Below are positions 32,106-51,203 of a DNA stretch of 64,000 nt, in pieces. The notes beneath the pieces are model-generated. The model searched no databases. It was not told the origin of the DNA and saw only the letters and a program-made list of their open reading frames with translations. The first letter of the stretch is position 1. Every line of letters begins with the position of its first letter. Made by a program: the position numbers and the translations under genes. The stretch is from Alphaproteobacteria bacterium (GTDB lineage: Bacteria > Pseudomonadota > Alphaproteobacteria > UBA8366 > Aestuariispiraceae), in the NCBI GenBank assembly GCA_033344895.1, contig JAWPMN010000001.1, positions 1,674,001-1,738,000 on the forward strand. Reading direction: 5' to 3'.

Positions 32106-32609
32106 TCAGCCGGAATTGCCGACCGGGTGAAGGGCATCGGAATCCTCCACGCCATTCTCCCGCCGTGCCAGGACCCGCTTCCGGGCTTCGCCGCTTTCGA
32201 TATCGGTCAGGCCCAGCATGCTGGACACGCGCCGGATCAGATTGGCCTCGTGGTCATGCAGTTCGCCGTCCGCGTAGACCACGTCCCACAACATCTCAAC
32301 CAGCGCGATGCGTTCGTCATGGTCGAAATGCTCGTTGACGACACGCAGGAAGGAATAGATGTCCACCGCGGCTTCGGCCTTGGCCTCGCTCTCGACCAGA
32401 ATTTGCTCGACATCGGTGCGCGAGACACCGAAATGACGCTCGATCAGCACGCCGATGCGCTCACGTTCGACCGAATCCACCTGGCCGTCCGTCATTGCGG
32501 CCTCGATCAGCATGGCCGCCGCCGCGATGTGAAGCTCGCGTTCGTCATGTTGGCCGCTTTTGTGACTCTGGGCCTCGGATTTGAAGAAATCGACTATCTT
32601 GTTCAGCAT
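32106..32609 (-). CDS. TerB-like protein
   Basis: 167 aa, helical. AAAAMLIEAAMTDGQVDSVERERIGVLIERHFG and VEMLWDVVYADGELHDHEANLIRRVSSMLGL are two TerB-type repeats with the conserved acidic residues of the tellurite-resistance TerB fold. No tellurite gene neighbours are present; function unknown. It is followed 27 bp downstream by the cNMP-binding gene. Confidence 0.8.
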   Translation of the reverse strand: MLNKIVDFFKSEAQSHKSGQHDERELHIAAAAMLIEAAMTDGQVDSVERERIGVLIERHFGVSRTDVEQILVESEAKAEAAVDIYSFLRVVNEHFDHDERIALVEMLWDVVYADGELHDHEANLIRRVSSMLGLTDIESGEARKRVLARRENGVEDSDALHPVGNSG

Positions 32610-32699
32610 ATCCGTCGTCGTTTGCTCGGGTTCCCGATCATTCGACGCAAAGGGCGCCTCATACCGGCATTCGGGTTCAGTCTTTAAATATTAGGCACG

Positions 32700-33305: not shown

Positions 33306-33318
33306 GCGCCGCCGCGCC

Positions 33319-34881: not shown

Positions 34882-34995
34882 GGTTTCGCCTCCCGTCTGT
34901 TCCCGAAACTATATGAAAAGATCAGAACGGTTTCAAATTCAGGCATGGGTTGCGATCCCACCGAAGACGGTTGCCGTGGGCGGAAGGGGCGCGTT

Positions 34996-35595
34996 TCAGG
35001 ACTGGCTGCAACCGCATTGCCGGGCGTCGACCGGTCGATAGTCGAGGATGTCGCCGCGGGCATTGGTTTCGACCTTGCAGCAGCGCAACAGGGCGTGTTT
35101 GAGCAGCCTGCGGCCGCGCTGCACACGGGACTTGATCCCGGATTGAGAGAGGCCGAGCCGCGCCGCCGCCGCGTCCCGGCTCATCCCCTCGATCTCCGTC
35201 AGCATGAGGGCTTCGGCGTAGCGTTCCGGCAGGCCGCGGATCAGCGGGACAAGGCAGGTCGCCAGCGCTTCCGACGGCGCCATTTCGACATTGACGGGTG
35301 CGTCGGAGGCGAGTTCCAGAAGCGCCGCGCCTTCGGTGGCCCGGCGTTCGGCGGCGCGGCGGCGGTACAGGTCCGTGATCGCGTTGCGGGCGACGCCATG
35401 CATATAGGCGACCGGGTTTCGCGCCCCGGTCAGGGCGTCCTGATGCCGGACCAGCCGAAGCAGAACGTCGCCCGTCACTTCCTCCACCTCGGCCGGGCCG
35501 ACATGGCGGCGGACAAACTGCGCCAGCCGGGTCCTGAATTCCGACCAGTCCGGTTCTTCGCGTTCGCCGCGACGGGCATGTGCGGTCTCGGTCAC
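34996..35595 (-). CDS. SigZ-like ECF sigma factor with Cys-rich tail
   Basis: 199 aa. Region 2 (DVLLRLVRHQDALTGARNPVAYMHGVARNAITDLYRRR) and region 4 (LPERYAEALMLTEIEGMSRDAAAARLGLSQSGIKSRVQRGRRLLKHAL) are intact. The C-terminal tail, RCCKVETNARGDILDYRP…CGC, carries four cysteines, as in SigZ-type sigma factors, which probably sense a metal or thiol agent directly. No anti-sigma gene is adjacent. An ArsI/CadI-like gene lies immediately upstream on the same strand. Confidence 0.88.
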   Translation of the reverse strand: MTETAHARRGEREEPDWSEFRTRLAQFVRRHVGPAEVEEVTGDVLLRLVRHQDALTGARNPVAYMHGVARNAITDLYRRRAAERRATEGAALLELASDAPVNVEMAPSEALATCLVPLIRGLPERYAEALMLTEIEGMSRDAAAARLGLSQSGIKSRVQRGRRLLKHALLRCCKVETNARGDILDYRPVDARQCGCSQS

Positions 35596-35651
35596 GGATT
35601 CCTCATCCCGCTTGCCGGCCGATTGGCGCCCGGTCGTCCATCTGCCGGGCC

Positions 35652-36050
35652 TCAGGCACAGCAGGTTTTGTCATTGGGCCGGGCCATCGGCTGATCGTCG
35701 GTGATAATATACCATTCCCAGTTCAGCCCGTCCGGCCCGTCGGACCACAGCTTGTCCTGGGTCGCGTGACAACAGGTCGACTGATCGACCACGCGGTTCA
35801 GGATGCCGTTTCCGGACAGCCGCTCCCGAACCACGGGCATGTCCGCCGGATCCAGGACTTCGACGCCGATATGGTTGAGGTGTTCCGGCGCATCCGCCGC
35901 TTCGAACAGAACCAGCTTCAGTGCCGGATCGTCGATCGCGAAATTGGCATAGCCGGGTCGTCTCTTGTGCGGTTCCGTCCCGAACAGGCGGCTGTAATAC
36001 GCCACCGCCGCATCGATGTCCGAAACATTCAGGGCCAGTTGCAGTCTCAT
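35652..36050 (-). CDS. ArsI/CadI-family glyoxalase-fold enzyme
   Basis: 132 aa VOC-fold protein. MRLQLALNVSDIDAAVAYYSRLFGTEPHKRRPGYANFAIDDPALKLVLFE and LNHIGVEV are the ArsI/CadI signature, STCCHATQDKLW carries the vicinal cysteines that bind trivalent arsenicals in ArsI, and a second KTCCA pair ends the protein. The predicted reaction is oxygen-dependent C-As bond cleavage of methylarsenite, or metal resistance. The ATG at 36050 has GGAG upstream. It precedes the sigZ-like gene. Confidence 0.85.
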   Translation of the reverse strand: MRLQLALNVSDIDAAVAYYSRLFGTEPHKRRPGYANFAIDDPALKLVLFEAADAPEHLNHIGVEVLDPADMPVVRERLSGNGILNRVVDQSTCCHATQDKLWSDGPDGLNWEWYIITDDQPMARPNDKTCCA

Positions 36051-36146
36051 GTCGCGTCTCCATTTCGCGGGAAGTGTCACCCGGTAAGACGAAGATGCTG
36101 CAAAACGGACGCAAAATTCTTGTGGGGCGCGCGAACGCTGATTGCT

Positions 36147-36662
36147 CTAGGTCCCGACCGCGGCTGCGACAGCCGGCTCGGCCGCGTTCAGCCGCTCGAT
36201 CTCGCGGATCGCCTGGCCGGCCAGTTCCGACAGCAACAGGCGCTTGCCCTGCGACATGGCTTCCCCACGCGGTTTGTCGTCGATGATGCACAGGGTGCCG
36301 AGCCGGTCCCCGTCCTGTGTGATCAGCGGCGCGCCGCAATAGTAGCGGATGTCGGGCGGTCCGGTGACAAGCGGGTTCTCCCGGAAGCGCGGGTCTGCCC
36401 GGGCGTCCAGAACCTCCATCACGTCGGCGCTGCGGATCGCATGATCGCAGAAAGCCCATTCCCTTGGCGTCTCCGTGGCGTCCAGACCGCAGCGGGACTT
36501 GAACCATTGCCGGTTCTCATCGACCAGGGACACCAGCGCGATGGGGGCGCCGAAAATACGCGACGCCAGGCCGGTGATCCGGTCAAGCTCCGGCGAAGGG
36601 CCGGTATCCAGGACATTCAGGTCCCGCAGCGCCTGCAATCTCTTCTGTTCAAGCGAATCCAC
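36147..36662 (-). CDS. GAF-domain protein
   Basis: 171 aa consisting of one GAF domain: EQKRLQALRDLNVLDTGPSPELDRITGLASRIFGAPIALVSLVDENRQWFKSRCGLDATETPREWAFCDHAI…YYCGAPLITQDGDRLGTLCIID is the standard stand-alone or N-terminal GAF of alphaproteobacterial sensors. No output domain is attached; the open frame ends cleanly. The signal is unknown. Confidence 0.85.
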   Translation of the reverse strand: MDSLEQKRLQALRDLNVLDTGPSPELDRITGLASRIFGAPIALVSLVDENRQWFKSRCGLDATETPREWAFCDHAIRSADVMEVLDARADPRFRENPLVTGPPDIRYYCGAPLITQDGDRLGTLCIIDDKPRGEAMSQGKRLLLSELAGQAIREIERLNAAEPAVAAAVGT

Positions 36663-36826
36663 GCATCACCCGTTTCAATACGCCCCTGAGCCGCACGATG
36701 CGCCGGACCGGCGCCGGTGGCAAGGAGCTGGATTGATCCGTGCAGAATCGCACGAAAAATTTAAGACAATCTGAAGGACGGTGATTTTGCACTGACAGCG
36801 TGTCGGGCTTGGGGCATAACCGACCT

Positions 36827-37462
36827 ATGGTCGCACATGTCACAACCGTTGCCTTCCAGGGCGTCGAAACGATGCCGATCGACGTCCAGGTCCAGCTGAC
36901 CTCGGGCCTACCGGCCTTCAACGTGGTCGGGCTGCCCGACAAGGCCGTGGCCGAAAGCCGGGAACGGGTGCGTGGTGCGCTGGCGGCCATCGGTCTGGCC
37001 CAGCCGCCGAAGCGGATCACGGTCAACCTGTCGCCGGCCGATGTCCTGAAGGAGGGCAGTCACTACGACCTGCCCATCGCGCTGGGCCTGCTGCTGGCGA
37101 TGGAGGCGATTCCCAGCGACGCGCTGGACGGTCATCTGGCGCTGGGGGAACTGGGTCTGGACGGCCGCATCGCGCCGGTCGCCGGGGTACTGCCCGCGGC
37201 CATGGCGGCGGTCGGCATGGACAAGGCATTGATCTGCCCGGCCAGCCAGGGCGGCGAGGCCGCCTGGGCGGGTGAGATGGACATCGCCGCCGCGCCGGAC
37301 CTGATTGCCCTAATCAACCATCTGAACGGCAGCCAGGTCATGCCGGTGCCGGAACCGAAACTGGCCCCGCCGATGCAGGACCCGCCGGACCTCGCCGATA
37401 TCAAGGGGCAGGAAACCGCCAAGCGGGTGCTGGAAGTCGCGGCGGCGGGCGGTCACAACCTG
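36827..37462 (+). pseudogene. comM: comM/yifB, N-terminal half (interrupted)
   Basis: The first 212 codons of ComM (YifB, Mg-chelatase-like AAA+ protein, a branch-migration helicase of natural transformation). FQGVETMPIDVQVQLTSGLPAFNVVGLPDKAVAESRERVRGAL and TVNLSPADVLKEGSHYDLPIALGLL are the N-terminal Lon-S5-like domain. The homology stops at AAGGHNL, directly before the Walker A motif. The open frame runs on into the mobile element to 37576 with unrelated residues. The rest of the gene resumes at 45804. Rejoining at the shared TG gives 506 codons in frame. Confidence 0.95.
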
Positions 37463-37486
37463 TTCATATTATATCTCCAATACCCG
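37444..37486. other. attL junction of the comM element
   Basis: Chromosomal GGCGGGC (37444-37450), then comM codons for GHNL ending in the probable TG crossover (37461-37462), then the element end. The element side carries TTATATCT (37469-37476) and AATACCCG (37479-37486), the left half of an imperfect 18-bp inverted repeat matched at the right end. Confidence 0.75.
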
Positions 37487-37554
37487 GCCTTTCGCTGCGG
37501 TTTGTCCTTGGGTAGAGTTGTTGCCTGGTCGTCAAAGGTAAACGAGGGAGGGAG

Positions 37555-38391
37555 ATGTTCGGAGATTTCAAAGTAGGTGAGACCTATAATAGACGAGCGG
37601 ACATACATGCGTTGTTTCGCGGTCAGCAGCAGGGTGGGATTGCAACGCCAGCGAAACATCCTGTGATTTTCGCCTTCACAGGCAGCAGCGGTGCTCAGCA
37701 TGGCTATGCCGACGGTTGGACGGATCACGGAGTCTTTCGCTATTTTGGTGAAGGGCAAGAAGGCAACATGCGCTGGAAGGGAGGGAACAAAGCAATCCGC
37801 GACCACGTTCCAGATGGCAAGGACCTGCTCCTTTTTGAGACGCTTGGGGGCGGACAGGTCCGTTGTATGGGTCAATTCGTGGCTGCCGGTCATGAGTGGG
37901 TTGAAGCCCCTGACCGTCGTAATGCGCCCCGACAGGCGATAGTATTCAACCTGGTTCCTCTCGAGCGCATTGGCGAGGGTGAGGCTGATCTGGAAGAGTT
38001 GCCAACTGACTTGCTGGAACTGCGTCGAAGGGCCACCGATGCCGCTACGGGTGGCGGCGCCGGCAAGCCATCAGATGCTAAGCGTAGTTGCTACACCCGT
38101 AGCGCCATCGTCAAAGCCTATGTTCTCTCCCGAGCAAAGGGAGTCTGCGAGTCTTGTGGTCGTCCAGCTCCGTTCAAGACGCAGAAGGGTGCCCCTTACC
38201 TTGAACCGCATCACATCCGGCGGCTGAGCGACGGTGGCCCTGATCACCCGAGCTACGTGGGAGCCGTATGCCCCAACTGCCATCGGGAGATCCACTACGG
38301 CCAAAATGGTATGTTGCTCAACGCGAAGCTCGCGGACTCCGTACAGGCAGCGGAGGCCCTTCTTGAGCAATCCGGTTCATCCGATGAGTAG
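37555..38391 (+). CDS. HNH endonuclease with SRA-like N-terminal domain
   Basis: 278 aa. Residues 1-150 (GDFKVGETYNRRADIHALFRGQQQGGIATP…GYADGW…FRYFGEGQEGNM) resemble the SRA-like modified-base-reading domain that accompanies HNH nucleases such as ScoMcrA. The C-terminal HNH is well formed: CESCGRPAP, LEPHHIRRLSDGGPDHP, and VCPNCHREIHYG. This is the layout of a type IV, modification-dependent restriction enzyme that cuts foreign modified DNA. gagggaggg lies just before the ATG. No methylase is nearby, as expected for type IV. The SRA assignment is from pattern memory, not a search. Confidence 0.75.
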   Translation: MFGDFKVGETYNRRADIHALFRGQQQGGIATPAKHPVIFAFTGSSGAQHGYADGWTDHGVFRYFGEGQEGNMRWKGGNKAIRDHVPDGKDLLLFETLGGGQVRCMGQFVAAGHEWVEAPDRRNAPRQAIVFNLVPLERIGEGEADLEELPTDLLELRRRATDAATGGGAGKPSDAKRSCYTRSAIVKAYVLSRAKGVCESCGRPAPFKTQKGAPYLEPHHIRRLSDGGPDHPSYVGAVCPNCHREIHYGQNGMLLNAKLADSVQAAEALLEQSGSSDE

Positions 38392-38579
38392 CGACGCTTT
38401 GGAGACGTATCTTTGAGCTTCTGGTATGCAAGACGAAGTGAGTTCGGCAGTCTATCGCTGGTCGTTTGAGATAATGAACCGAGCGTCTTGAGCCAAATAC
38501 AAAACCGTGCACCTGTTCGCACGACCTATAACGAGCATCCTCTTTACAAAGCTGACGCAGAATAGGTGTCTGGGTCGCC

Positions 38580-38618
38580 GGGAGAAGGAGGGCCAAACAA
38601 CCCTCCTCTTCCCGTTTT
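38580..38618. terminator. Terminator between HNH and ParB-domain genes
   Basis: GGGAGAAGGAGGG (38580-38592) and CCCTCCTCTTCCC (38601-38613) form an imperfect hairpin followed by GTTTT on the plus strand. It separates convergent genes. The rest of 38392-38663 contains a short palindrome, CCTGCA-TTA-TGCAGG (38626-38640), and no gene. Confidence 0.6.
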
Positions 38619-38663
38619 GAGATTGCCTGCATTATGCAGGTCCCAGGAGGTGCATGGTGATTG

Positions 38664-39473
38664 TCAAAAATCCTCGTTTTCTTCCATTGCATCCTCGCTG
38701 ACGTAGTGCAGTAGTTCCTTTACCACGTCCTCAAGCCGTCGCCCCAAGTGAAACGCGAGGGCTCTTGCGGCAACCTCTGGGTTTTGCCCGAGTATGGTTC
38801 CAAAAGCCTTGTGCAAGCGGTCGGCGTATTCGTTCGCCAGAGCCTCCAGGTATGCCTCCCTCTCATCGTCATCCATTGGCTTCCGGCTGTTCATCTGATG
38901 GTGGTTCAGGGCTTCTTGCCATACGGTGAAATCATAGGCGGCGTCGCCCAGTTCGCGCTTCAAACGGCGCATCTTGCCGAGTTGCCCATCCGAAGCGCCG
39001 GATGCTTCCATCATTTCAGGCTTGGTGTACCTATCGAGGAGCACAAGTCGCCAAGCGTAGTTCATGCGCTCTTGTGTGCCCATCACCAGACGCACCTTGC
39101 TGTTGATCCGCCCAGCTTCCAGGACGGCCTCTTCCACTGACCCACAGAACCAGTTCACCGGGACAGTGTTGGTCACACAGGCGAGTTTGTAAGCCTCCAA
39201 CCGATGATGTCCATCTATCACCACGCCCCGCTGACCCACAGGTAGCAAGAGGATGGGATCAAGGTCACCCTGCCTCTTAATCGTCCGAGCCAACTCTTGT
39301 ACGTGATGCTCATCCAAGACCTCGTGTCGAGGCTGGAAGAGGTCCGGGTGAAGGTCGATCAGTCCGAATTCGAGCCGGTTGGGCAGGCTCATGGGCTCGT
39401 TGGTGTTTTTCAGTTTGCTGGAAAGAAGCTCAAGGGTTTCTGAGGCGCCGGTCATGGTTTGCTTCTCGATCAC
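38664..39473 (-). CDS. ParB/Srx-fold nuclease-domain protein
   Basis: 269 aa. Residues about 30-130 are a ParB/sulfiredoxin-like domain: LIDLHPDLFQPRHEVLDEHHVQELARTIKRQGDLDPILLLPVGQRGVVIDGHHRLEAYKLA, with the GHHR motif. A helical DNA-binding part follows (YTKPEMMEASGASDGQLGKMRRLKRELGD). No ParA partner is present, so it is not an obvious partition pair; it may regulate the element. The start overlaps the stop of the upstream Zn-motif gene. Confidence 0.75.
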   Translation of the reverse strand: MIEKQTMTGASETLELLSSKLKNTNEPMSLPNRLEFGLIDLHPDLFQPRHEVLDEHHVQELARTIKRQGDLDPILLLPVGQRGVVIDGHHRLEAYKLACVTNTVPVNWFCGSVEEAVLEAGRINSKVRLVMGTQERMNYAWRLVLLDRYTKPEMMEASGASDGQLGKMRRLKRELGDAAYDFTVWQEALNHHQMNSRKPMDDDEREAYLEALANEYADRLHKAFGTILGQNPEVAARALAFHLGRRLEDVVKELLHYVSEDAMEENEDF

Positions 39474-40135
39474 CGCAGTTCCTCCAAAGCGTTCTTCAGG
39501 TTCTCTCGCTGTTTCTTTTCGTGCTCACGTCTTCTCTGATCCGTTCTCGCCACCACGAGGCCCACCGGCCCAAGGATTTCGGCTATCATCTGGCCAAGAG
39601 TGATGACTGTGCGTGGCGGAAGGTCTCGATAGACGCGCTTCATCTTTCCAGTTGCGTGATCGTACCAAGTACCGGCGTTGGCCTCTGTCAGCCCCCTGCA
39701 ACGTCGAACGAGTTGATGGGTAAAGGCATTGTCGGACTGGAAGGTTCGGGGTCGATGCTCGGCCAGAAGATAGATCGCGCATACTGTGCGAATAACTTCC
39801 TGCACCTTTACGTTCTCGGAAAGCCGGATCACTTCGCGAGCTGCTTGTACCTCGAACTTGATCATTGGTGTGCCGTTCAGGTAGGCCGCCTCGATCGCCC
39901 GGCAGCGGTGGACCAAGGCTCCCCATCGCTGGCTGGCAATGTCCCAGGTGGAATTGTCCCGGTTGCGCTCAATGACTTCATCGACCAGCGCCAAGTAATG
40001 CTTCAAGTCACCCTTGGTCACACCCTGTTGCAAGGGATGGCCGTGGCGGCGCAGTCTGGTCTTGTGAGTCGGGCAGTATCGCCCATAGGCGCTCGTCGTC
40101 CCCGAGCACCCGCTGATTTGGCAGGGTCTTTTCAT
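39470..40135 (-). CDS. Hypothetical protein with CxxxC…CxxH zinc motif
   Basis: 221 aa. The N-terminus, CQISGCSGTTSAYGRYCPTHKTRLRRHG, is the small zinc knuckle common at the start of phage HNH and DNA-binding proteins. The remainder is helical, with a lysine/arginine/glutamate-rich C-terminal end (RTDQRRREHEKKQRENLKNAL), and has no catalytic motif I recognise. It is translationally coupled to the ParB-domain gene. Function unknown. Confidence 0.6.
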   Translation of the reverse strand: MKRPCQISGCSGTTSAYGRYCPTHKTRLRRHGHPLQQGVTKGDLKHYLALVDEVIERNRDNSTWDIASQRWGALVHRCRAIEAAYLNGTPMIKFEVQAAREVIRLSENVKVQEVIRTVCAIYLLAEHRPRTFQSDNAFTHQLVRRCRGLTEANAGTWYDHATGKMKRVYRDLPPRTVITLGQMIAEILGPVGLVVARTDQRRREHEKKQRENLKNALEELR

Positions 40136-40186
40136 TGTCGTCCTTTTGATGATGTTGATGGATTTCGCGTCCGTCCCCCGAGGGAC

Positions 40187-40231
40187 AGAGACAAAAAGAA
40201 AATCCGGCCAGATCGTCTCTGATCTGACCGG
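40187..40231 (-). terminator. Rho-independent terminator of the resolvase gene
   Basis: On the minus strand CCGGTCAGATC pairs with GATCTGGCCGG around an AGAGAC loop, followed by ATTTTCTTTTTGT. It lies about 40 bp after the resolvase stop. Confidence 0.8.
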
Positions 40232-40269
40232 TTCTCTGCCCTAGGGTGGAACCTAATCGAAACTCAGGC

Positions 40270-40965
40270 TCAAACGGCTTGATCCAGGACCCTCTGCACC
40301 TGGACGGCTTGCCACTTCCCGCCTCTCGCGGTGGTTATGCCTCTTTCGTTCAGAGCCTTGGCAATCCCACCGAACGACGCGACCCCACTCTCTCGAATTT
40401 CTTGAATAACAGGAAGAAGGTCGGAGGCTCGTGCCTTTGCCTTTTCCTGTCGGGCCTTGGTGGCAGCTTCCCGCCCTGCTCCAGGCACAAGGTGATGGGA
40501 GGCATTTCGATCCCACTGTCCATCCCGCTCGACTTTGGCTCGCAAGGCCGCCTTTGTTCGTTCCGAAATCAAGCCTGCTTCGAGTTGGGCGATGTTCGCC
40601 ATTTGCCTGAGAATGAACTCCCCAACAGCTCCTTCCACGCCTGGAAGGTCGCAGAAGACTACCGGGACGCCAGAGGCAAGGACTGTCTCCAGAAAGGATG
40701 CAGACCGAGTGAGCCTGTCCACTTTGGCGACAATGAGGGTTCCGCCCATAACGCGACAGCGGGCAAGCGCCTTGCCCAACTCGGGGCGGTCGTTGCGCTT
40801 CCCGCTCTCTACCTCGATGAATGGCGGTGCGATCAATTCGTCCCCGGGCTTCATATGCCGGGCCACGGTCGCTTCCTGGGCTTCCAGGCCCAAACCGCTC
40901 TGTCCTTGTTTGGTGGTCGATACTCGGTAATAGGCTACATACCGGGTCACGTCGTTACATTCCAT
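40270..40965 (-). CDS. Small serine recombinase/resolvase
   Basis: 231 aa. YVAYYRVSTTKQGQSGLGLEAQ contains the catalytic serine (about residue 16). ALARCRVMGGTLIVAKVDRLTRSASFLE and IAQLEAGLISERTKAALRAKVERDGQWDR are the catalytic-domain and helix E signatures, and the C-terminus has an HTH (FGGIAKALNERGITTARGGKWQAVQVQRVL). It is of the resolvase/invertase class and could resolve dimers or invert a segment. A TTACG-N6-CGTAA dyad lies 10-30 bp upstream. Confidence 0.9.
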   Translation of the reverse strand: MECNDVTRYVAYYRVSTTKQGQSGLGLEAQEATVARHMKPGDELIAPPFIEVESGKRNDRPELGKALARCRVMGGTLIVAKVDRLTRSASFLETVLASGVPVVFCDLPGVEGAVGEFILRQMANIAQLEAGLISERTKAALRAKVERDGQWDRNASHHLVPGAGREAATKARQEKAKARASDLLPVIQEIRESGVASFGGIAKALNERGITTARGGKWQAVQVQRVLDQAV

Positions 40966-40976
40966 CGCTATGTCCG

Positions 40977-40992
40977 TTACGATGAAACGTAA
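40977..40992. promoter_or_regulatory. Dyad upstream of the resolvase gene
   Basis: TTACG-ATGAAA-CGTAA lies 11-27 bp upstream of the resolvase ATG and is a possible res subsite or operator. Confidence 0.35.
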
Positions 40993-41086
40993 TAAACTAC
41001 GAAACAGTTTGTCAATCAGTCTCGGGCTGGCATGACAGAAAGTGACTACCTCTGCGCCCTTGTATGGTGCCCTTGACCCCCCACCC

Positions 41087-41653
41087 CTATACCGGGGGAA
41101 AGCCGCATCTTCTATAGTAGGATAACCCGCTCAGATTTTTTCGCTGAAACACCTGGAGCCTTTGATCTCATAGACTTACTCGACGGCCTCTTGAGAGAAC
41201 AGAGCGATGAATGCGGCAGGTGTTGGGGTGTCGTGGAAGACTATGACTACAGGGTAGTGACGACGGTGAAGGTAGTGCCCACGATGGTGACAGATTTTGA
41301 ACTCTATCGCTTTCTCGACGGTGTAGCTCATGCCCTACGGCGCAAAGACTTCACGGGCCGTGTTGATAGGAGTTGGTTCCCGAAGTTACACATCCTCACC
41401 CTACCAATACGGTAACCGCATCCTGAACTGGGATGCGTTCAATTCTGAACTGAACTATTTCACGTCTCATCTCGCGACTTTGAGTTACCTCATGAAGTGG
41501 TTCGCCACGCAGTCCCCGCTGGTGAGTGTCTTCGATCTTTGGTGTTTACATAAGAGTTTGAAAACAGAGGAGGTGAATACCAAAAGTGGTGATATTTTGC
41601 GTTGCTCTATTGAATTGAGGAGAACGCAAAAGGATGCTGGTTTCCATACTTGA
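41087..41653 (+). pseudogene. Possible frame-shifted hypothetical gene
   Basis: Two overlapping open frames look protein-like but lack good starts. The first, open from 41087 to TAA at 41413-41415, reads …SDFFAETPGAFDLIDLLDGLLREQSDECGRCWGVVEDYDYRVV…. The second, +1 relative and open from 41330 to 41653, reads …YQYGNRILNWDAFNSELNYFTSHLATLSYLMKWF…. Joining them between 41327 and 41413 would give one ~185-residue protein with CGRC. This accounts for most of the ~670-bp gap before the CoiA-like gene. Low certainty. Confidence 0.3.
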
Positions 41654-42455
41654 AGGCCAACGCATGGAGGCAGATGCAGCGGAAAAGGGCCCTGAGTACA
41701 GGTGTCCAAACTGTCATGCTGTTGTGGTTCTCAAGAAGGGCAGGATCAAAATTCACCACTTCGCCCACAAGCCCCCGGTCAACTGCACCTGGGGCAAGGG
41801 TGAAACCCATGAACACCGTGAAGCCAAAAAACTATTCAAGGAGGAGTTTGTTCGGCGCGGTCTCAGGGCGGAAGTGGAGCACGAAGTCCAAACTCTTCCC
41901 GATGACAGACGGGCAGATGTACTGGTGTGGTCCCCCCGGGGGCAACGGTTTGCTCTCGAACTTCAGCACACAGGGGTTGACTATGACAACCTCGAGCACC
42001 GCACCCGAAGTTACATTCAAGCCGGGGTGCCGGTTATATGGATACCCTTCCTGCATCCGAAGAACTGGGGGTCTACAGAACGTCTCGGTCCCGGCGACGA
42101 CGGAGACTACCGGATTGAACGCTTCACGGCTCGTCCCTTGGAAAAGTGGGTTCATGGGTTCTACTACGGGGAACCCTGGATGTACGATCCCAAGGCCAAG
42201 GCGCTGTGGAGGTACAAACTCGATAAGCACCAAATCTACGTTGACCATTCATCTTGGTATGACTCGGACGGTAACGAACAGAGTACCGGGGGCTACTGGA
42301 AGACCTCCAAGCGGTGGAGGGAGTTGACCTTGTGGGGACCATACCGCCTGGATCAAATCCGCATTGGCGTCCTGAACAGGCAGGAAACCTCAATAGGGAA
42401 CCACCACTATCCGGGCGGGTCTGTGGGCAAGCTGGTGTTGCAGGAGGATCAATGA
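41634..42455 (+). CDS. CoiA-like competence/nuclease protein
   Basis: 273 aa. RCPNCHAVVVLKKGRIKIHHFAHKP is the N-terminal zinc-ribbon/treble-clef region of CoiA-like proteins, followed by GETHEHREAKKLFKEEF and a PD-(D/E)xK-type nuclease core: RADVLVWSPRGQRFALELQHTGVDYDNLEHRTRSYIQAGVPVIWI (catalytic D, then ExQ). CoiA promotes recombination in transformation in Gram-positives; CoiA-like nucleases also occur on mobile elements in many phyla. The next gene overlaps the stop (ATGA at 42452-42455). Confidence 0.8.
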   Translation: MLVSILEGQRMEADAAEKGPEYRCPNCHAVVVLKKGRIKIHHFAHKPPVNCTWGKGETHEHREAKKLFKEEFVRRGLRAEVEHEVQTLPDDRRADVLVWSPRGQRFALELQHTGVDYDNLEHRTRSYIQAGVPVIWIPFLHPKNWGSTERLGPGDDGDYRIERFTARPLEKWVHGFYYGEPWMYDPKAKALWRYKLDKHQIYVDHSSWYDSDGNEQSTGGYWKTSKRWRELTLWGPYRLDQIRIGVLNRQETSIGNHHYPGGSVGKLVLQEDQ

Positions 42456-43156
42456 TGGAACCGCAAATCTATCTGTGGTCCGGCGAGCGGGAGTTGCTTC
42501 TGGCTCGCCATGATTTCTACATGGAGCAGACGAAGGCCCGCGTCCTTGGCAACTTCAACAACATGGAGGAGGAGGCGAACCGGTTTTCAGAGGAGGTGTA
42601 TGAACGGATTGGCTCGATGCCTTCCTATGGCGACGGGGATATGTCTGTTGCTGCCGAGGCCGCTTTTGAGCACGGGGCGGACTTCTACATGATGCTCAGT
42701 GACTTGAAGACACAGACGACTCTCGGGGCCCTGGCTTCCTTGTTTCACCAATGGGACAAAGACTTCCGCGACTTCATGGAAAGGCAACTTGCCCATTCCT
42801 TTGACCGTGCCGAAGTGGAAAGAAACTGCTGGCAACCCAACATTGGGAAGCTATTTGACGTTCTGGAGGAATGGGGATGGCCGCTCCGTCAGGCTCCTTG
42901 GTTCCCGCTGGTCAGCGCCTGTCGGCTGATTGTGAACGTCCATAAGCACGGCAAAGGCCGGTCGCTGGATGAACTGGCCCAAGACTATCCCCAATACTTC
43001 AAGGGGCCATTTGATAACCTCGGGGCGGGCTCCTGGCTCAAAGCCCCGGACCATGAAAACCTGAGCGTTTCCGAAGCGGAGTTCGATCAAATAGCCGATG
43101 CTCTGAGGCAGTTTTGGGCTGATTTCCCAGAGCGGCTTTTCATGCCCAACCCATGA
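42452..43156 (+). CDS. Unknown protein with Rx5H motif, coupled to the CoiA-like gene
   Basis: 234 aa from tandem ATGs at 42452/42455 with caggagg upstream. It is helical and acidic. CRLIVNVHKHGKG near residue 175 contains R-x5-H followed by KHG, reminiscent of HEPN ribonuclease active sites (Rx4-6H), but the fold is not established. No other domain is recognised. The four-base overlap with the CoiA-like gene implies a two-gene functional unit. The gene ends 3 bp from the convergent Abi_C gene. Confidence 0.65.
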   Translation: MMEPQIYLWSGERELLLARHDFYMEQTKARVLGNFNNMEEEANRFSEEVYERIGSMPSYGDGDMSVAAEAAFEHGADFYMMLSDLKTQTTLGALASLFHQWDKDFRDFMERQLAHSFDRAEVERNCWQPNIGKLFDVLEEWGWPLRQAPWFPLVSACRLIVNVHKHGKGRSLDELAQDYPQYFKGPFDNLGAGSWLKAPDHENLSVSEAEFDQIADALRQFWADFPERLFMPNP

Positions 43157-43159
43157 CGG

Positions 43160-43927
43160 TCATCCGCCCCGGCCCTGCCAAGTCTCCACCAGGAAGGTCG
43201 CCATAGACCCAGCAAGATTGACCGCAAGGGCCGCATGGCGTGGCGCTGGTCTGACCGGGTTCCGTCCCTGCCCATGAGCATCCCCGATCCTGTTACGAAG
43301 GGTTCCGAGGTTCTGGACCACGTTATGACACCCGCCAAGGATGGCCTTGAAGGTCTCCTCGGTGTGCTGCGAGGGAGACAGGTTCAGCACCTTGGCTGTC
43401 TTGCTGTACAGCTTGGGAAGGTCATCGTCCCCGTAGGTCTCCCCGGCTTCGTCCAGGATGCGTTTACAGACGGTCTCAAGGAGCGTCCGGGCGGCGGTGA
43501 TGGCTCCCTCGGGGTCTTCATGCCGTCTGGCCAAAGCCTTCTCCCATGCCCGGTGGACTCCATCGGGATTGAAGGAAGACAGGGCCTCGGAAATGGCCGT
43601 GTCCGCCGGGGCCTTGTTGCGGCCCTCCAGGTGATCCAGGAGCGGTTGGAAGGCTTCGTAGATGTGTTTCTTCCGCTGCGCCCATGATCCCGCACCGGAG
43701 GCAACCTGCCTGAGGTGTCCCCATAGCTGCCCCTGGTCACGGCAAGTCCGGATGAAGGTGGGGAGCAGGGAGCGGGCCTCGCCTTCTATGAACTCGGAGC
43801 GGAGTTGGTGATAGGTGGTCTGATCCAAGTCGCCGTTCTGTGCCACGGCAATCAACATGTTCTGGAGCATCAAGGCCCGCTCCAGCGGCGTATCCGGTAG
43901 GTCCGGGGGATCAAGGTTCCAGGTCAT
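43160..43927 (-). CDS. Abortive-infection Abi_C/HEPN family protein
   Basis: 255 aa. The C-terminal ~90 residues, PEGAITAARTLLETVCKRILDEAGETY…LGTLRNRIGDAHGQGRNPVRPAPRHAALAVNLAGSMATFLVETW, match the Abi_C domain, with the HEPN-type RNRIGDAH (R-N-x5-H). The N-terminal half is helical and unassigned. Family members are linked to abortive phage infection. It starts 14 bp after the serine recombinase stop on the same strand, so it is probably expressed with the integrase. Confidence 0.8.
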   Translation of the reverse strand: MTWNLDPPDLPDTPLERALMLQNMLIAVAQNGDLDQTTYHQLRSEFIEGEARSLLPTFIRTCRDQGQLWGHLRQVASGAGSWAQRKKHIYEAFQPLLDHLEGRNKAPADTAISEALSSFNPDGVHRAWEKALARRHEDPEGAITAARTLLETVCKRILDEAGETYGDDDLPKLYSKTAKVLNLSPSQHTEETFKAILGGCHNVVQNLGTLRNRIGDAHGQGRNPVRPAPRHAALAVNLAGSMATFLVETWQGRGG

Positions 43928-43941
43928 TCCGCTTTGTCTCC

Positions 43942-45756
43942 CTACGCAACCTCACACGCGGCTTCTTGAACTGTACCGCCGTCTTCCAGGCCATAGGAGC
44001 GAACACTCCCGGGCACCAGTTCACCGGAGACCACCTTGAAGCCCCATGCGGCCTTCTGTCCGGCCTCAAGCCAAAGGTGGCGTTGAATGCCCTGGACGCT
44101 GATGAACTCTATCTCAATCATCCCGTGCCAGTCCTTACCCTCGGTCTCCGGGGTCTCGGGGACGAACATGAAGAAATGATCCTCGGGCACGGGCGTGTTC
44201 TCAGCATCCCATTCCCACTCCGTCTCCCGGTAGGAGATATGCCGGAAGGTGAGGGAGCGGAGGGTCCGTTTCAGGAGTTGATGGAGGCGACTACGGAGCC
44301 GGAACGCCTCATTGTCATCCCCGTGCCGCTGTACCTCCCGGAGACGCTCCAAGGCGTCTTTGGTCTCCCCGTGGTCATGCTGGAGGCTTTCCAACCTGTC
44401 GCGCTCTTGGTCCACCCGTTGCCGAAGGGCCGAGACCTCCTGTTCCATATAAGCCCTTTCTTGCTCCAGGTTATCCAGCTTCGCAATCAAGGCAGGACTG
44501 TCCGGGCGACAGACCAACAGGGAGACTACATTGTCTATCTGTTCCACGATCCTGCGGAGGTCTTCCTCTTTCACCAGGAGGTCAGCATCAAGCCGTTTGA
44601 TGGTGTCAGTTGTGGCCTGATAGACGGAGGGGAAAAGTTCTCGATAGTCCACCTCCTGAAGCATTGATAAAATGAAGGCTTCAACCGGCCTGTGCTGCCA
44701 TGAAGGGGCGGCGCAGTTTCCTACTTTCCGCCGTGCATTGGAGCAGGTGAGGTAGTGCTCACCCTTCCCCTTGTTGATGAAATGCATTGCCCCGCCACAA
44801 ACACCACATTTCGCAAGGCCCGTGAATAGGTTGGAGAACCGCTCACCCCGCTTGCCCCCCTCGATCCGTTTGGAGATCCGCATCATCTTGGCTTTGAGGA
44901 AGGTCTCCCGATCAATAACGGCGGGGAAGTAGTTGGGGATTGGGTCTCCATCGGGAAGACGAACATAACCTCCGTCCGTGCGCTCCTTCCGCATAGGCTG
45001 AAACTCACCGGTGACAGACTCATTGCTCAGGATTTTTTTGATGTACGACTCCTGCCAGCCTTGAGAGCGACCGAATGTAGGAACTCTTTCTTCATTGAAG
45101 ATAGAGGCAATTTTCCCAGCCCCGATCCCTTCCAGTGTCAGAGAGAAAATCCTGCGGATCACCTCGGCCCGGTCATCGAGGATATTGAAGGAACGGCGAT
45201 CCTCGGCCAGCTTCAGCCATGCCGGGGCGCGGGCTGTCAGTTTCTTCCCGCCACCGTAGACGTCCTGCCGCTTCATGGCCCATGCCGCTTTCAGCCGTTT
45301 CGACTTCGTGAGGCTTTCTTCATGTGCGCGATACATCACTGACAAAGAGACCATAAGGTCGCCGAAGTTGTTGGAGAAAGTCTCGGGATGGTAGACTTTT
45401 CCATCTTGAAGGGTGGCTATCACGATGCCTTTCTCAAGGAGCGATGTGAACTGAAGGAATGCTTTGTGGACTTGATCACGACTGAGGCGGTCCAGGCTCT
45501 CCACGAGGAGATATGAGCCGCGACGGATACGGCCTTCATCCACGGCTTGGACAAACGCCCCCAACGCCCCCCCATCGATGTTTCGCCCGGTGAAAGCTGA
45601 CACGCCAAGGTCTTGGAAAGTGAGAGTTTCATCGAGTTCCAGGCGATGGTCTTGAACGAATTGTCGGCTCAATTCTGTCTGACGTCGGTAGCTGTCTCCA
45701 CGGCTTTGCTCTGGGGTAGAGAAGCGGACGTAGCTGTAAGCGCGTGTCTTTGTCAT
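43942..45756 (-). CDS. Large serine recombinase (integrase)
   Basis: 604 aa from ATG at 45756. YSYVRFSTPEQSRGDSYRRQTE carries the catalytic Ser (residue 13); YLLVESLDRLSRDQV and the Recombinase domain (ARAPAWLKLAEDRRSF…RIFSLTLEGIGAGKIASIFN) follow. A zinc ribbon (CGVCGGAMHF…LTCSNARRKVGNCA) is at about 340-375 and a long coiled coil at about 405-510 (DLRRIVEQIDNVVSLL…VSALRQRVDQERDRLESL). A ~100-residue tail of unknown role ends the protein. It lies at the right end of the element, beside attR, and is the likely enzyme for integration into comM. Confidence 0.95.
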   Translation of the reverse strand: MTKTRAYSYVRFSTPEQSRGDSYRRQTELSRQFVQDHRLELDETLTFQDLGVSAFTGRNIDGGALGAFVQAVDEGRIRRGSYLLVESLDRLSRDQVHKAFLQFTSLLEKGIVIATLQDGKVYHPETFSNNFGDLMVSLSVMYRAHEESLTKSKRLKAAWAMKRQDVYGGGKKLTARAPAWLKLAEDRRSFNILDDRAEVIRRIFSLTLEGIGAGKIASIFNEERVPTFGRSQGWQESYIKKILSNESVTGEFQPMRKERTDGGYVRLPDGDPIPNYFPAVIDRETFLKAKMMRISKRIEGGKRGERFSNLFTGLAKCGVCGGAMHFINKGKGEHYLTCSNARRKVGNCAAPSWQHRPVEAFILSMLQEVDYRELFPSVYQATTDTIKRLDADLLVKEEDLRRIVEQIDNVVSLLVCRPDSPALIAKLDNLEQERAYMEQEVSALRQRVDQERDRLESLQHDHGETKDALERLREVQRHGDDNEAFRLRSRLHQLLKRTLRSLTFRHISYRETEWEWDAENTPVPEDHFFMFVPETPETEGKDWHGMIEIEFISVQGIQRHLWLEAGQKAAWGFKVVSGELVPGSVRSYGLEDGGTVQEAACEVA

Positions 45757-45781
45757 AGTTTCTGAATAATCCAAATGCGTT

Positions 45782-45820
45782 CGGGTATTCAAGATATAAC
45801 GTGCTGATGATCGGCCCGCC
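45782..45820. other. attR junction of the comM element
   Basis: The element end CGGGTATT-CA-AGATATAA (45782-45799) is the inverted partner of the left end (16 of 18 bases match). The probable TG crossover is at 45802-45803. comM resumes with LMIGPPGSGKS, and GCCCGCC (45814-45820) is the right arm of the attB dyad. Confidence 0.75.
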
Positions 45821-46688
45821 GGGTTCGGGCAAGAGCATGCTGGCCGCGCGCCTGCCCGGCATTTTGCCGCCGATGACGCCGACCGAGGCGCTGGAAGTGT
45901 CGATGATCCATTCCGTCGCCGGGCTGATGATCGACAATGGCCTGTCCCATACGCGGCCGTTTCGCGACCCGCATCATTCCAGTTCCACTCCGGCTCTGGT
46001 TGGCGGCGGCCAGCGCGCGCGCCCGGGCGAGGTCTCGCTGGCCCATAACGGCGTGCTGTTTCTGGACGAATTGCCGGAATTCCAGCGCGGCGCGTTGGAA
46101 TCGCTCCGCCAGCCGCTGGAGACGGGCCGCGCGGTGGTCGCGCGGGTCAACGCCCATGTCACCTATCCGGCGCGGGTTCAGCTTGTTGCCGCGATGAATC
46201 CCTGCCGCTGCGGCCATCTGGACGATCCCGACCTAGCCTGCAGCCGCGCGCCACGCTGCGCCGCCGATTATCAGGCGAAGATTTCCGGGCCGCTGTTCGA
46301 CCGCATCGACCTGACCGTCGACGTGCCTGCCGTGCGCGCCAGCGACCTGGACCGCCCGCCGCCGGCCGAGGGCTCGCGGGAGGTCGCTGCTCGTGTTGCC
46401 GCCGCCCGCCTGCGCCAGACCCGCCGCTTCGCCGACTATCCGGTCGACGGCCGGCCGCGCACCAACGCCCAGGCCGACGGCCAGATCCTGCAGGACATCG
46501 CCACCCCGGATGCCGAGGGCCGCAAGCTCCTGACCGAAGCCGCCGACCGCCTCAAACTCTCCGCCCGCGCCTACCACCGCGTCCTGCGCGTCGCCCGCAC
46601 CCTTGCCGACCTGCAGGACGAAGGCACGGTGCGCCGCGTCCATGTGGCGGAGGCGCTGGGCTATCGACGGGTGCCGGTGCGGGGTTAA
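45804..46688 (+). pseudogene. comM: comM/yifB, C-terminal half (interrupted)
   Basis: 295 codons including stop. It begins LMIGPPGSGKSMLAARLPGILPPMT (Walker A), then SHTRPFRDPHHSSSTPALVGGG, GEVSLAHNGVLFLDELPEFQRGALESLRQPLE (Walker B), NPCRCGHLDDPDLACSRAPRC and the C-terminal Mg-chelatase-like helical domain. It has no credible start or ribosome site of its own, so it is not expected to be translated while the element is in place. Precise excision would restore the gene. Confidence 0.95.
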
Positions 46689-47257
46689 TCCCCCTTCGCC
46701 GCCGCGATCACATCCGCTGCAATCTCCGCAGCCCGTTCAGGTGAGCCGGTGGCGCGGGCGAGGGTCAGGCCGCCGATCAGGGTGCTGAGGAGTTGCCAGG
46801 CGCGGCGGCGGCGGTTGGCATCGGTGTCGCCGTCCAGGCCCTGCGCGATCAGGTCGACGATGCGGCCCATCTTTTCGTCATAGGCGGCTTTGATCTCCGG
46901 CCCGGCACGGGCGACGTCGGGGGACAGCGCGGTCATGGCGCATAACCGGTCGTCATCGCCGCGATGGGCGGCGCCCAGATAATAGTCGGCGAAGGCGGCG
47001 ACCCAGTCCGCGCCGTGTTCCGCCTGGAATACGGGCACGGCCTCGATCACTTCGTCCAGTCCGGCGCAGAGCGCGGCGGTAAAAGCGCCGTCCTTCGATC
47101 CGAAATGGTCGTAGAAGGCGCCGGAGGTCACCCCGGCTTCCTTCGCCACCCCTGCAACACCGATGCCGTCATAGCCGTTGCGGCGGAACAGGCGCGACGC
47201 CGCATCCACCATTTTCTGCTGTGTATCCCGCTTTCGGTCCGGATTTCTGGCCATCAT
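46685..47257 (-). CDS. TetR family regulator
   Basis: 190 aa. RDTQQKMVDAASRLFRRNGYDGIGVAGVAKEAGVTSGAFYDHFGSKDGAFTAAL is the TetR HTH. The C-terminal region (HRGDDDRLCAMTALSPDVARAGPEIKAAY) resembles the NemR/AcrR-like ligand-binding type. It is divergent from the Tat-exported YdhR-like gene, with two palindromes between them, and overlaps the end of comM by 4 bp (convergent). Confidence 0.9.
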   Translation of the reverse strand: MMARNPDRKRDTQQKMVDAASRLFRRNGYDGIGVAGVAKEAGVTSGAFYDHFGSKDGAFTAALCAGLDEVIEAVPVFQAEHGADWVAAFADYYLGAAHRGDDDRLCAMTALSPDVARAGPEIKAAYDEKMGRIVDLIAQGLDGDTDANRRRRAWQLLSTLIGGLTLARATGSPERAAEIAADVIAAAKGD

Positions 47258-47297
47258 CCACCAAAAAGATACCGATCACTATATTTCTCATTGAAAC

Positions 47298-47337
47298 ATA
47301 GCGACCGCTATATTAATTGACATAGCGATCGTTATGT
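47298..47337. promoter_or_regulatory. Operator pair between TetR and YdhR-like genes
   Basis: ATAGCG-AC-CGCTAT (47298-47311) is a perfect palindrome. ACATAGCGATCGTTATGT (47320-47337) is a near-perfect one sharing the ATAGCG half-site. They are about 22 bp apart centre to centre, suiting cooperative TetR binding that controls both genes. Confidence 0.6.
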
Positions 47338-47378
47338 TAATGCGCAGGACGGTCGTTTTCAACAATCGAGAGGTCACG

Positions 47379-48176
47379 ATGAATTCGAAATCCCCCGGAT
47401 CAAGTGCCGGGATCGACCGCCGCGGGGTCCTGAGGGCCGGTGCCGCCGGTCTCGGTCTCGGTCTTGGCGCGGCACTCGCCGGCATCCCGTTCCGCATGGC
47501 GGCGGCGGACATTCAGACGCAATCAAAGGAAGAGAGAATGAAACAGGAAGCCTTCGTTTACACGGAATTGCAGATTTCCGTGCCCTTCGACCAGGTCCCC
47601 TGGCGGGACATCAATGCCGCGATCCGCGCCCTGCCGGGATTCCGGAACAAGACCTGGCTCAGCGGTGTCGGCAACAACTCGGCCGGCGGCATCTACAGTT
47701 TCGAGACGGTGGCCGATGCCGAGGCCTTCGTGACCGGCTACTTCCCGGACGAGGCGCGGAAGTTCGGGGTTGCCCAGACAACGCGCATCTTCGACGCCGT
47801 CGCGACGGAAGAGGCCAGCCGGGAGATGAACTCGGTCCATTATCCGGGTGGCACGCTGGACGCGGAACCGGGCGCCTTCGTCTATACGGAGGTCTGGCTG
47901 AGCGCCCTGCCGTTCGACAATGCGCCCTGGCGCCAGTTCAATCCGGTCCTGAAACAGCAACCGGGCCTGATGTCGAAGACGTGGCTCAGCGGCCTGCATA
48001 CCGGCACGCCGGGCGGGATCTATGCTTTCGATACGGTCGAGAACGCGACTTCCTTCGCGCTGAACTATTTCCCGACCGAAGCAAAGGCGCTGAACGCCGC
48101 GTTCTACACGCGGGTCTTTGATGCCAAGCCGACGGCGGCGGCGAGCCGTGAGATGAATTCGCCCTTCTATATCTGA
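47379..48176 (+). CDS. Tat-exported tandem YdhR-like monooxygenase-fold protein
   Basis: 265 aa. The N-terminus, GIDRRGVLRAGAAGLGLGLGAALAG, is a twin-arginine signal. The mature part is two similar ~95-residue units: FVYTELQISVPFDQVPWR…KTWLSG…GGIYSFETV…REMNSVHY and FVYTEVWLSALPFDNAPWR…KTWLSG…GGIYAFDTV…REMNSPFY. Each resembles YdhR-type dimeric alpha-beta-barrel proteins, so the duplication would form an internal pseudo-dimer. A periplasmic oxidative role is possible. Probably controlled by the divergent TetR. Confidence 0.75.
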   Translation: MNSKSPGSSAGIDRRGVLRAGAAGLGLGLGAALAGIPFRMAAADIQTQSKEERMKQEAFVYTELQISVPFDQVPWRDINAAIRALPGFRNKTWLSGVGNNSAGGIYSFETVADAEAFVTGYFPDEARKFGVAQTTRIFDAVATEEASREMNSVHYPGGTLDAEPGAFVYTEVWLSALPFDNAPWRQFNPVLKQQPGLMSKTWLSGLHTGTPGGIYAFDTVENATSFALNYFPTEAKALNAAFYTRVFDAKPTAAASREMNSPFYI

Positions 48177-48302
48177 TGCGGAATCGGGGGGCCGGACCGG
48201 TCTCCCGAACCCTGCCGGGCTTTGGCCCTGTTGCATCCTGCGGGAAATGCGAACACCCTGACCATCGTGGAGCGCCAGGGAGTCGCGACAAGCGGAGGTT
48301 GC

Positions 48303-49601
48303 ATGAAACGGGGAGAAAGCCAGACCGGCGGGATGGCGTTGCGGGGGGCCCTGGCGCCGGTGGCGGCGTTGCTGGTCAGCGTGGCGTTGCTGCTGATGGG
48401 CAACGGGCTGCAGGGGACGCTGTTGCCGATCCGGGGCGTAGCGGAATCCTTCTCCAATCTGCAGATCGGCGTCCAGGGGACCTTCTATTTTCTGGGCTTC
48501 ACAATCGGCTGCTTCACCGGGCCCTATCTGTTGAGCCGCGGCGGGCATATCCGCACCTTCATGGCGATGGCGTCGCTGACCTCGGTAACGGCGCTGCTGC
48601 ATGCCATGATGCCGGAACCCTATCTTTGGGCCGCCCTGCGCGGGATCACCGGCTATTGCTTCGCCGTTCTGTACATCGTCATCGAAAGCTGGCTGAACGA
48701 GAAATCCACCAATGCCAATCGCGGGACGGTGTTTTCAGTCTATACCATCGTCAATCTGACGGTGGTGACGATCGGGCAGATGATGGTCGGGCTGGCATCG
48801 CCGGAGACGTTTCTGCTGTTCGCGGTCACATCGATCCTGATCTCGGTATCGGCGCTGCCGCTGGCCTTCACCACCTCGGCCTCACCGAGCCCGGCGACCC
48901 CGATCCGGGCCAATCTGAAGCGCCTCTACCGGATTTCTCCGGTGGGCTTCGTCGGCTGCGCGGCGGTCGGGTTCGCGAATGGCGCCTTCTGGGCGCTGGC
49001 GCCGCTCTTCGCCCAGTCGCACGGCCTCGACCCGTCCGGTGTCGGCCTGTTCATGAGCGCGATCGTGCTAGGCGGGGCGGTGGCGCAATGGCCCTTCGGG
49101 GCGCTGTCCGACCGGGTCGACCGCCGCTATGTCGTGATCGCCGCGGCGGCGCTGGCCTGCGTCGCCGGCCTCGCCCTGACCTTCCTTGCGGGGGACAATC
49201 TCTGGGCGCTGCTGGGCATCGGCGCCCTGCTGGGGGCCGGGGCGATGCCGGTCTATGCGCTGTCCGTCGCCCATGCCAACGACCATGCCAGACCCGACCA
49301 GATGGTCGAAGTGTCCAGCGGCCTGCTGCTGGTCTTCGGTGCCGGGGCGGCGATGGGGCCGGTGCTGGCGTCCCTGCTGCAATCCGGCCTGCCGTTTCCG
49401 GCGCTGTTCACCTATACCGCGCTGATCCACGGCGCGCTGGTCGCCTTCGTCCTGTGGCGCCTGCTGCGCCGCGGTCCGGTGGCGCGCGAGGATCGGGTCA
49501 CCTTCACGCGGTCTGCCGTCGCGGCGCAGACCCTGTCCGAAACGGGGACCGTCGCGGCGGAATCGATCGGCCGCGACAAGCAGCCGGACGAACGCTCCTG
49601 A
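48303..49601 (+). CDS. MFS transporter
   Basis: 432 aa with twelve predicted helices. GVQGTFYFLGFTIGCFTGPYLL, LRGITGYCFAVLYIVIESWLNEKS, and the mid-protein AQWPFGALSDRVDRRYVVIAAAA (the A-like loop 8-9 motif) mark the major facilitator family, of the YfcJ/UMF-like group that includes small-molecule efflux pumps. The ATG at 48303 is the first good start before helix 1; the frame is open further. Substrate unknown. Confidence 0.88.
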   Translation: MKRGESQTGGMALRGALAPVAALLVSVALLLMGNGLQGTLLPIRGVAESFSNLQIGVQGTFYFLGFTIGCFTGPYLLSRGGHIRTFMAMASLTSVTALLHAMMPEPYLWAALRGITGYCFAVLYIVIESWLNEKSTNANRGTVFSVYTIVNLTVVTIGQMMVGLASPETFLLFAVTSILISVSALPLAFTTSASPSPATPIRANLKRLYRISPVGFVGCAAVGFANGAFWALAPLFAQSHGLDPSGVGLFMSAIVLGGAVAQWPFGALSDRVDRRYVVIAAAALACVAGLALTFLAGDNLWALLGIGALLGAGAMPVYALSVAHANDHARPDQMVEVSSGLLLVFGAGAAMGPVLASLLQSGLPFPALFTYTALIHGALVAFVLWRLLRRGPVAREDRVTFTRSAVAAQTLSETGTVAAESIGRDKQPDERS

Positions 49602-49613
49602 AGGCGCGTTTCC

Positions 49614-49940
49614 TTAGCCCGCCTCATGATCGATCCGCGGCGCGGTAACGGCCGCCTGCGCGTCAAAATTGGCGGCAAGGCGCATTTCGCGCAGCGGACG
49701 GACCCGTTCGATGGACTGACGATAGATCGGATGCGCCTTGTAGGCCGCCAGGGCCGCCTCGTCGTCGAATTCGCCATAGACCACGATATCGACCTCGCGG
49801 CTCAGGGGGTCGGTCTTCTGGTTCAGGCCGACTTCCAGTAGGCGGGCATGGGGGATGTCGGTCAGGATCGACAGACCGTCGCGCAGGCGTTCGGCGTCGA
49901 CCCCGTCCCGGGCGGTGAAAAAGACGAAATGGCGGATCAT
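49614..49940 (-). CDS. Dabb-domain (stress-responsive alpha/beta barrel) protein
   Basis: 108 aa. MIRHFVFFTARDGVDAERLRDGLSIL…EVGLNQKTDPLSREVDIVVYGEFDDEAALAAYKAHPIYRQSIERVRPL is the Dabb ferredoxin-like fold. Members act as small binding or oxygenase proteins in some catabolic paths. It is the last gene of the minus-strand cluster headed by a glutathione transferase. Confidence 0.85.
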   Translation of the reverse strand: MIRHFVFFTARDGVDAERLRDGLSILTDIPHARLLEVGLNQKTDPLSREVDIVVYGEFDDEAALAAYKAHPIYRQSIERVRPLREMRLAANFDAQAAVTAPRIDHEAG

Positions 49941-49959
49941 CTGTCTTCAGCAACCCCAA

Positions 49960-51193: not shown

Positions 51194-51203
51194 GGATTTT
51201 CCT

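Follow-up and report, generated by a model that had tools for sequence, protein, structure and literature searches.

An 8,341-bp element encoding a large serine recombinase interrupts comM ahead of Walker A in an alphaproteobacterium, at a site that recurs among related recombinases

In the 64,000-nt stretch of alphaproteobacterial DNA analysed here (contig JAWPMN010000001.1, positions 1,674,001 to 1,738,000; hereafter the window), comM is interrupted at positions 37463/45804 by an insert of 8,341 bp, and the genome holds no other copy of the gene. We consider it very probable that a large serine recombinase (LSR) drove site-specific integration of this element into comM, and hold the explanation set out below, as a whole, with the same high confidence. 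It draws on four features of the sequences: the precision of the insertion, the symmetry of the attachment sites, intact comM in relatives, and related LSRs at the same place in comM elsewhere. The gene and its insert are laid out as follows.

36827..37462, + strand: comM 5′ half (ChlI domain, up to GGHNL), from Pfam and NCBIfam matches and intact relatives
37463..45803, no strand assigned: integrative element, 8,341 bp, from the join of the flanks, intact relatives and att symmetry
45804..46688, + strand: comM 3′ half (Walker A onward), from Pfam and NCBIfam matches and intact relatives

The left half matches positions 3-214 of TIGR00368 together with Pfam ChlI, and the right half positions 215-499 together with Mg_chelatase and Mg_chelatase_C, so the ComM profile match runs unbroken across the split. 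Joined exactly and in frame, the halves give 1,521 nt, or 507 codons including the stop, open throughout. A search of the whole genome (one 4.64-Mb contig, 98.8% complete) returned these two halves and one other weak match (4.6e-4). Four of the five other same-genus genomes searched carry comM uninterrupted, while in the fifth, G002, an assembly of 320 contigs, the gene is fragmented across two of them. To comM of the nearest relative, G004, the joined flanks align ungapped (1385/1517 nt, 91%; 98% at the amino acid level), and comparison with the intact relatives reveals a precise insertion, with no comM base lost or duplicated. The initial annotation had described comM as split by an 8.34-kb insert of lower GC with an LSR beside the right junction, a description borne out by the ungapped alignment of the spliced halves and by the intact same-genus homologues without the insert. 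GC content is 0.562 within the insert versus 0.651 (30000-37462) and 0.665 (45804-52000) outside. The insert itself was not found in the 13 other genomes of the family, save for a 51-base match of 81% in G013.

Eight gene calls in the element were examined:

37555..38391, + strand: McrA-like HNH protein, a putative modification-dependent restriction enzyme (Pfam HNH, 2e-7)
38664..39473, − strand: protein with a ParB N-terminal domain (Pfam ParB_N, 6e-6; a 32% relative in the element of genome G396)
39470..40135, − strand: protein of unknown function (no Pfam, PADLOC or NCBIfam match; weak PHROGs HNH match, 0.0069)
40270..40965, − strand: second, small serine recombinase with a resolvase domain and a short Recombinase piece (Pfam Resolvase, 2.5e-23)
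41634..42455, + strand: CoiA-like nuclease (Pfam CoiA_N, 9.4e-14; CoiA_nuc, 1.1e-11)
42452..43156, + strand: unknown protein, phrog_19541 (PHROGs, 1.8e-42)
43160..43927, − strand: Abi_C/AbiJ-like protein, putative abortive infection (Pfam Abi_C, 2e-23; PADLOC AbiJ, 5.5e-20)
43942..45756, − strand: LSR, the integrase (Pfam Resolvase, Recombinase and Zn_ribbon_recom; phrog_95 integrase, 3.4e-72)

The LSR gene lies 47 bp from the right junction, and its product carries the catalytic serine motif, with Y9, R11, S13 and E86-R90 invariant across seven aligned LSRs. The closest solved LSR by sequence is the SPbeta integrase YokA (9dxh, 9dxd; 2.4e-10), a phage integrase with a different target. The cargo looks like a small defence set, given the McrA-like HNH protein, the Abi_C protein and the CoiA-like nuclease. 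For the first of these, a PADLOC mREase_IV match (3.9e-24) is confined to the HNH part, which also matches the E. coli McrA structure (PDB 6ghc, 3.2e-23), and the N terminus shows a weak match (0.004) to a region of ScoMcrA (5zmn) that is presumably its SRA domain. The small serine recombinase may be a recurring companion, because a 45% relative lies inside the comM element of G223. Part of its gene (window 40769-40821) has a 53-base match of 83% elsewhere in the genome. Gene calls that have no family match are uncertain, since 92 mechanical ORFs of at least 30 aa overlap the insert. No tRNA or Rfam match was found in 34000-50000, and no directionality factor for the LSR was recognised in the element.

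Where exactly did the strands exchange? For nine elements inserted at this place in comM, we reconstructed attP out of the attL and attR sequences and scored the symmetry of its arms at shifts of -8 to +8 bases, rescoring with half-base shifts; the zero point was set at bases 1 and 2 of the second Leu codon in GGHN-L|L. The best centre was shift 0, free of ties, in eight of the nine, with scores of 16 out of 20 for the window, 17 for L041, 13 for G223, 11 for G396, 18 for G756 and 16 each for G414, G052 and G738. None of 2,000 shuffles reached the observed symmetry in six elements, the window included; P was 0.0025 for G223 and 0.06 for G396. In G737, symmetry was best at +0.5 (14/20), and integer shifts were unremarkable there (P = 0.90). 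In the window, the two central dinucleotides are:

37463..37464, + strand: attL crossover dinucleotide TT, at the centre of attP symmetry
45804..45805, + strand: attR crossover dinucleotide CT, at the centre of attP symmetry

Judging from this symmetry, exchange probably took place at bases 1 and 2 of the second Leu codon before Walker A. The initial annotation had joined the halves at a shared TG; the resulting 507 codons and 8,341-bp size stand, but we rejected the TG as the exchange point, because the symmetry of attP is centred on the two bases that follow. Seven of the nine elements have CT at attL and attR alike; the window reads TT at attL and CT at attR, and G396 the reverse, CT and TT. 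LSRs normally do not tolerate differing dinucleotides at attL and attR, identity being usual though not strictly defining, so that for these two elements one has to assume either that a base mutated afterwards or that exchange took place across a mismatch. The difference in the window is the main weak point of the case; it would be explained by a transition after integration or by a mismatch that was tolerated.

The site is not peculiar to this genome. Relatives of the LSR (E ≤ 1e-20) are present in 8 of 385 genomes of the class, this one counted, and five of them (G000, which is this genome, G052, G223, G396 and G414) adjoin comM at ComM aa ~209-217. For two others, in G101 and G183, the stretches retrieved contain no comM. 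In G202 (L086 5200-10908), an LSR relative together with an N6/N4 DNA methylase sits at comM codon ~34-36, with both junctions reading ACC-CT and the remaining comM open: a second LSR site within the gene. When 398 genomes of the phylum were searched with a profile, 35 had matches at E ≤ 1e-50; among the 30 loci retrieved with about 1.5 kb of flank each, 7 adjoin comM at aa 209-216 and 23 do not. These seven comprise two repeats (G000 and G396), three further members of the class (G738, G756 and G708) and two genomes of other classes (G619 and G737). An LSR relative also stands beside comM, at the same place, in a Sphingobium MAG (L041) and in one (L134) of 68 IMG/VR loci; for many of the viral loci the target is unreadable because they begin close to the LSR.

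In total, 12 comM-adjacent LSR loci fall at aa ~209-217 (the window, G052, G223, G396, G414, L041, G738, G756, G708, G619, G737 and L134), and in 10 of these a single contig carries both comM halves. G708 retains just aa 344-499 of the right half, and L134 shows aa 50-215 only. The symmetry analysis covered nine of the twelve, since one junction is missing or unlocated in G619, G708 and L134. As in the window, the halves of other interrupted copies give continuous tblastn matches. Internal stops had suggested decay of the halves in G052, G756 and G619, a reading we rejected: the junction sequences show in-frame stops on the element side, which we take to be the stops in question (for G619 the right end was read, and two further stops there have no placement). 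A class-wide scan matched comM in 323 of 387 genomes; the 28 re-searched (26 plus 2 of the same genus) were picked by hand, and some splits may have been missed for that reason.

We also built a tree of 101 LSRs of 350 aa or more (E ≤ 1e-20), from which L092 and L093 were excluded as repeats and in which G101 is present twice, as L087 and L120; its comM-associated enzymes form two groups intermixed with others. A group of five has support of 0.996, and node support within the larger one runs from 0.07 to 0.95. The tree is compatible with a single ancestral capture of comM by the LSR family and with several. Relatives of the LSR occur in 190 of 50,697 phage records and 180 of 72,556 plasmid records, all at <60% identity, and ComM itself has matches in 32 phage records. 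When the plasmid records were searched with ComM of the nearest genus-mate, the nine best matches all came from alphaproteobacterial genera.

Taken together, these data fit the following course of events. A circular element with a near-palindromic attP (~46 bp by eye) would have recombined with a chromosomal attB overlapping the codons ahead of Walker A (GGHN-L|L-MIGPPGSGKS), the reaction being carried out most likely by the element's own LSR. Exchange at the leading dinucleotide of the second Leu codon would split comM with neither loss nor duplication, and the reverse reaction would restore the gene exactly. Excision by LSRs normally requires a directionality factor. Loss of ComM would probably reduce replacement, by transformation, of long heterologous DNA, and the element would thereby be shielded from curing. 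The LSR as actor, working excision, defence by the cargo and reduced transformation are what we infer beyond the sequence comparisons. Evidence on the other side consists of the attL/attR mismatch, the half-base offset in G737, the weak symmetry in G396, the many LSR relatives away from comM and the failure to recognise a directionality factor. The small serine recombinase of the insert could also act.

It is possible, if unlikely, that this is no compact element but what reduction has left of a prophage or an ICE/IME. The viral loci with LSR relatives, among them the one at the same place in comM, would fit such an origin, as would the relaxase carried by the G414 element. However, phage structural or packaging genes (Pfam, NCBIfam and PHROGs) and relaxases (Pfam and NCBIfam) gave no match in any of the eight element proteins. 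Relatives of the Abi_C and HNH proteins were sought in viral contigs, and none was found. As for the contents of the related elements, that of G414 encodes Vsr, a C5 methylase and a MobA-type relaxase with RepB primase; that of G396, an AIPR/AbiU-like protein; that of G052, a Fic protein (PADLOC SoFic); that of G223, a NUMOD4-HNH protein and the small recombinase 45% identical to the one in the window; and that of L041, regulators and a protein with a phage-integrase domain. This is a sketch and no census: the scans took in a selection of proteins (20 with Pfam, 10 with PADLOC) drawn from the five elements just named and from the G202 and G316 loci, and several had no match.

What has happened to comM since the insertion? 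On this branch we counted 2 nonsynonymous and 53 synonymous derived changes in the comM halves, compared with 2 and 36 in the intact sister (outgroups G003 and G005; G001 dropped for length); both halves are open and, by these counts, under purifying selection. Decay is thus absent, which points either to a recent insertion or to continued use of comM, two situations indistinguishable here. The latter would suit a regulated gene-intervening element, of which the comK prophages and skin-type elements are examples, in which the LSR excises the insert and rebuilds comM when competence is needed. The selection on both halves and the exact, in-frame join, paralleled by the continuous matches in other interrupted copies, speak for such a scheme. 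Yet a young insertion is expected to leave the same pattern, the insert is absent from the other same-genus genomes searched, and neither a directionality factor nor a regulatory tie to competence was found; we regard regulated excision as quite improbable.

The broader proposal, in which a single comM codon has become the specialised target of integrases from several proteobacterial lineages and their elements act as a reversible switch, strikes us as a long shot of about the same order. If true, the integrated element would block its own curing by transformation while supplying other defence, and would leave on cue to restore comM; exact excision of this kind would account for both halves lacking decay. 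An effect of ComM loss on transformation is plausible in this host, since the genome encodes DprA (above the NCBI cut-off) and a ComEC homologue (below the cut-off). ComM is described as a helicase for recombination of heterologous DNA, and its loss cut transformation by two orders of magnitude in the assay of the study concerned, according to the relevant passage (PMC11472951).

Other comM genes are broken in other ways. In G301 (L082 1873-6285 and L083), the comM halves part at aa ~280-286 across a gap of 73 kb, one end of which encodes TnsA, a TnsB-like protein, TniB and TniQ: a Tn7-like element in comM within the same class. Transposase genes of the IS1595/ISXO2 type separate the comM halves at aa ~302-307 in G025, G042 and G479 (L079 3244-4212, L080 1809-2441 and L081 3905-4858), and at aa ~240-245 in G394 (L078 3529-4494); a short target duplication is suggested at these insertions by a few codons present at both ends. 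In the viral locus L134 (8072-11530), comM aa 50-215 is flanked by the LSR and by an apparent tyrosine-integrase gene, named from reading the sequence, as if two elements had entered the gene. In G316 (L077 8263-8925) and G221 (L084 914-1558), comM is broken at the Walker A codon. The stretches fetched for these two held no LSR relative; the G221 contig ends ~0.9 kb past the junction, and the stretch fetched for G316 gave no match to ComM aa ~214-427.

A Tn7-like (Tn6022/AbaR-type) or Tsy-type insertion in the window can be practically dismissed, even though such elements use the same gene, in G301 too: Tns, TniQ and tyrosine recombinases gave no match among the eight element proteins (Pfam, PADLOC, NCBIfam and PHROGs), and the same method finds TnsA, TniB and TniQ in G301; no listed repeat of at least 14 nt pairs the element's two ends; and the junction lies ahead of Walker A, whereas those elements use the region of Walker B (PMC10293859). 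Unrelated machines converge on comM, LSRs before Walker A and Tn7-like and Tsy elements near Walker B, a list to which the Tn7-like case at aa ~280 and the IS1595-type insertions at aa ~305 in three genomes can be added. With their codon and dinucleotide in common, the LSR sites lend themselves to tests of LSR specificity, and of whether loss of comM protects mobile elements from replacement.

How does the element compare with known systems? Tn6022 (TnsF) and Tsy elements resemble it in being inserted in comM, but, as described in that part of PMC10293859, they use a Tn7-type transposase or a tyrosine recombinase at the Walker B region and no LSR, in contrast to the LSR and Walker A here. The disruption of comM by mobile elements in several species, and the argument that this prevents curing, are already in print (PMC4774983); as far as the relevant passages go, the elements of PMC4774983 and PMC11472951 share the interrupted comM, in some cases defence systems, and the same anti-curing argument, and unlike the present one depend on other integrases or are Tn7-like. 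Closer still, the LSR survey of PMC10083194 reports, in the section concerned, that 12.4% of predicted site-specific cases target a magnesium chelatase/ATP-dependent protease gene and that competence genes are enriched among LSR targets. Its elements share with ours an LSR, attL/attR and a target gene that we take, from the names, to be comM/YifB; that section does not place the site at a codon, nor does it treat small islands of Alphaproteobacteria separately. Most sr1WO recombinases of phage WO, according to the passage in PMC9203015, integrate into the Wolbachia magnesium chelatase gene, again LSR integration into a gene of the same name in an alphaproteobacterium, but by prophages and not by a compact island. 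The initial annotation had proposed an independent capture of the AbaR target gene, and LSR chemistry and the position at Walker A rather than Walker B do set this case apart; LSR use of the target, however, had been published (PMC10083194 and PMC9203015, the gene being equated by name). Our literature search on serine-recombinase comM hotspots in Alphaproteobacteria returned no matching paper. LSR insertion into a comM-type gene and the limit that comM loss sets on transformation were therefore known, and the element is new in detail: beyond the passages of the cited papers, it adds a codon-level site, its recurrence and a defence-like cargo.
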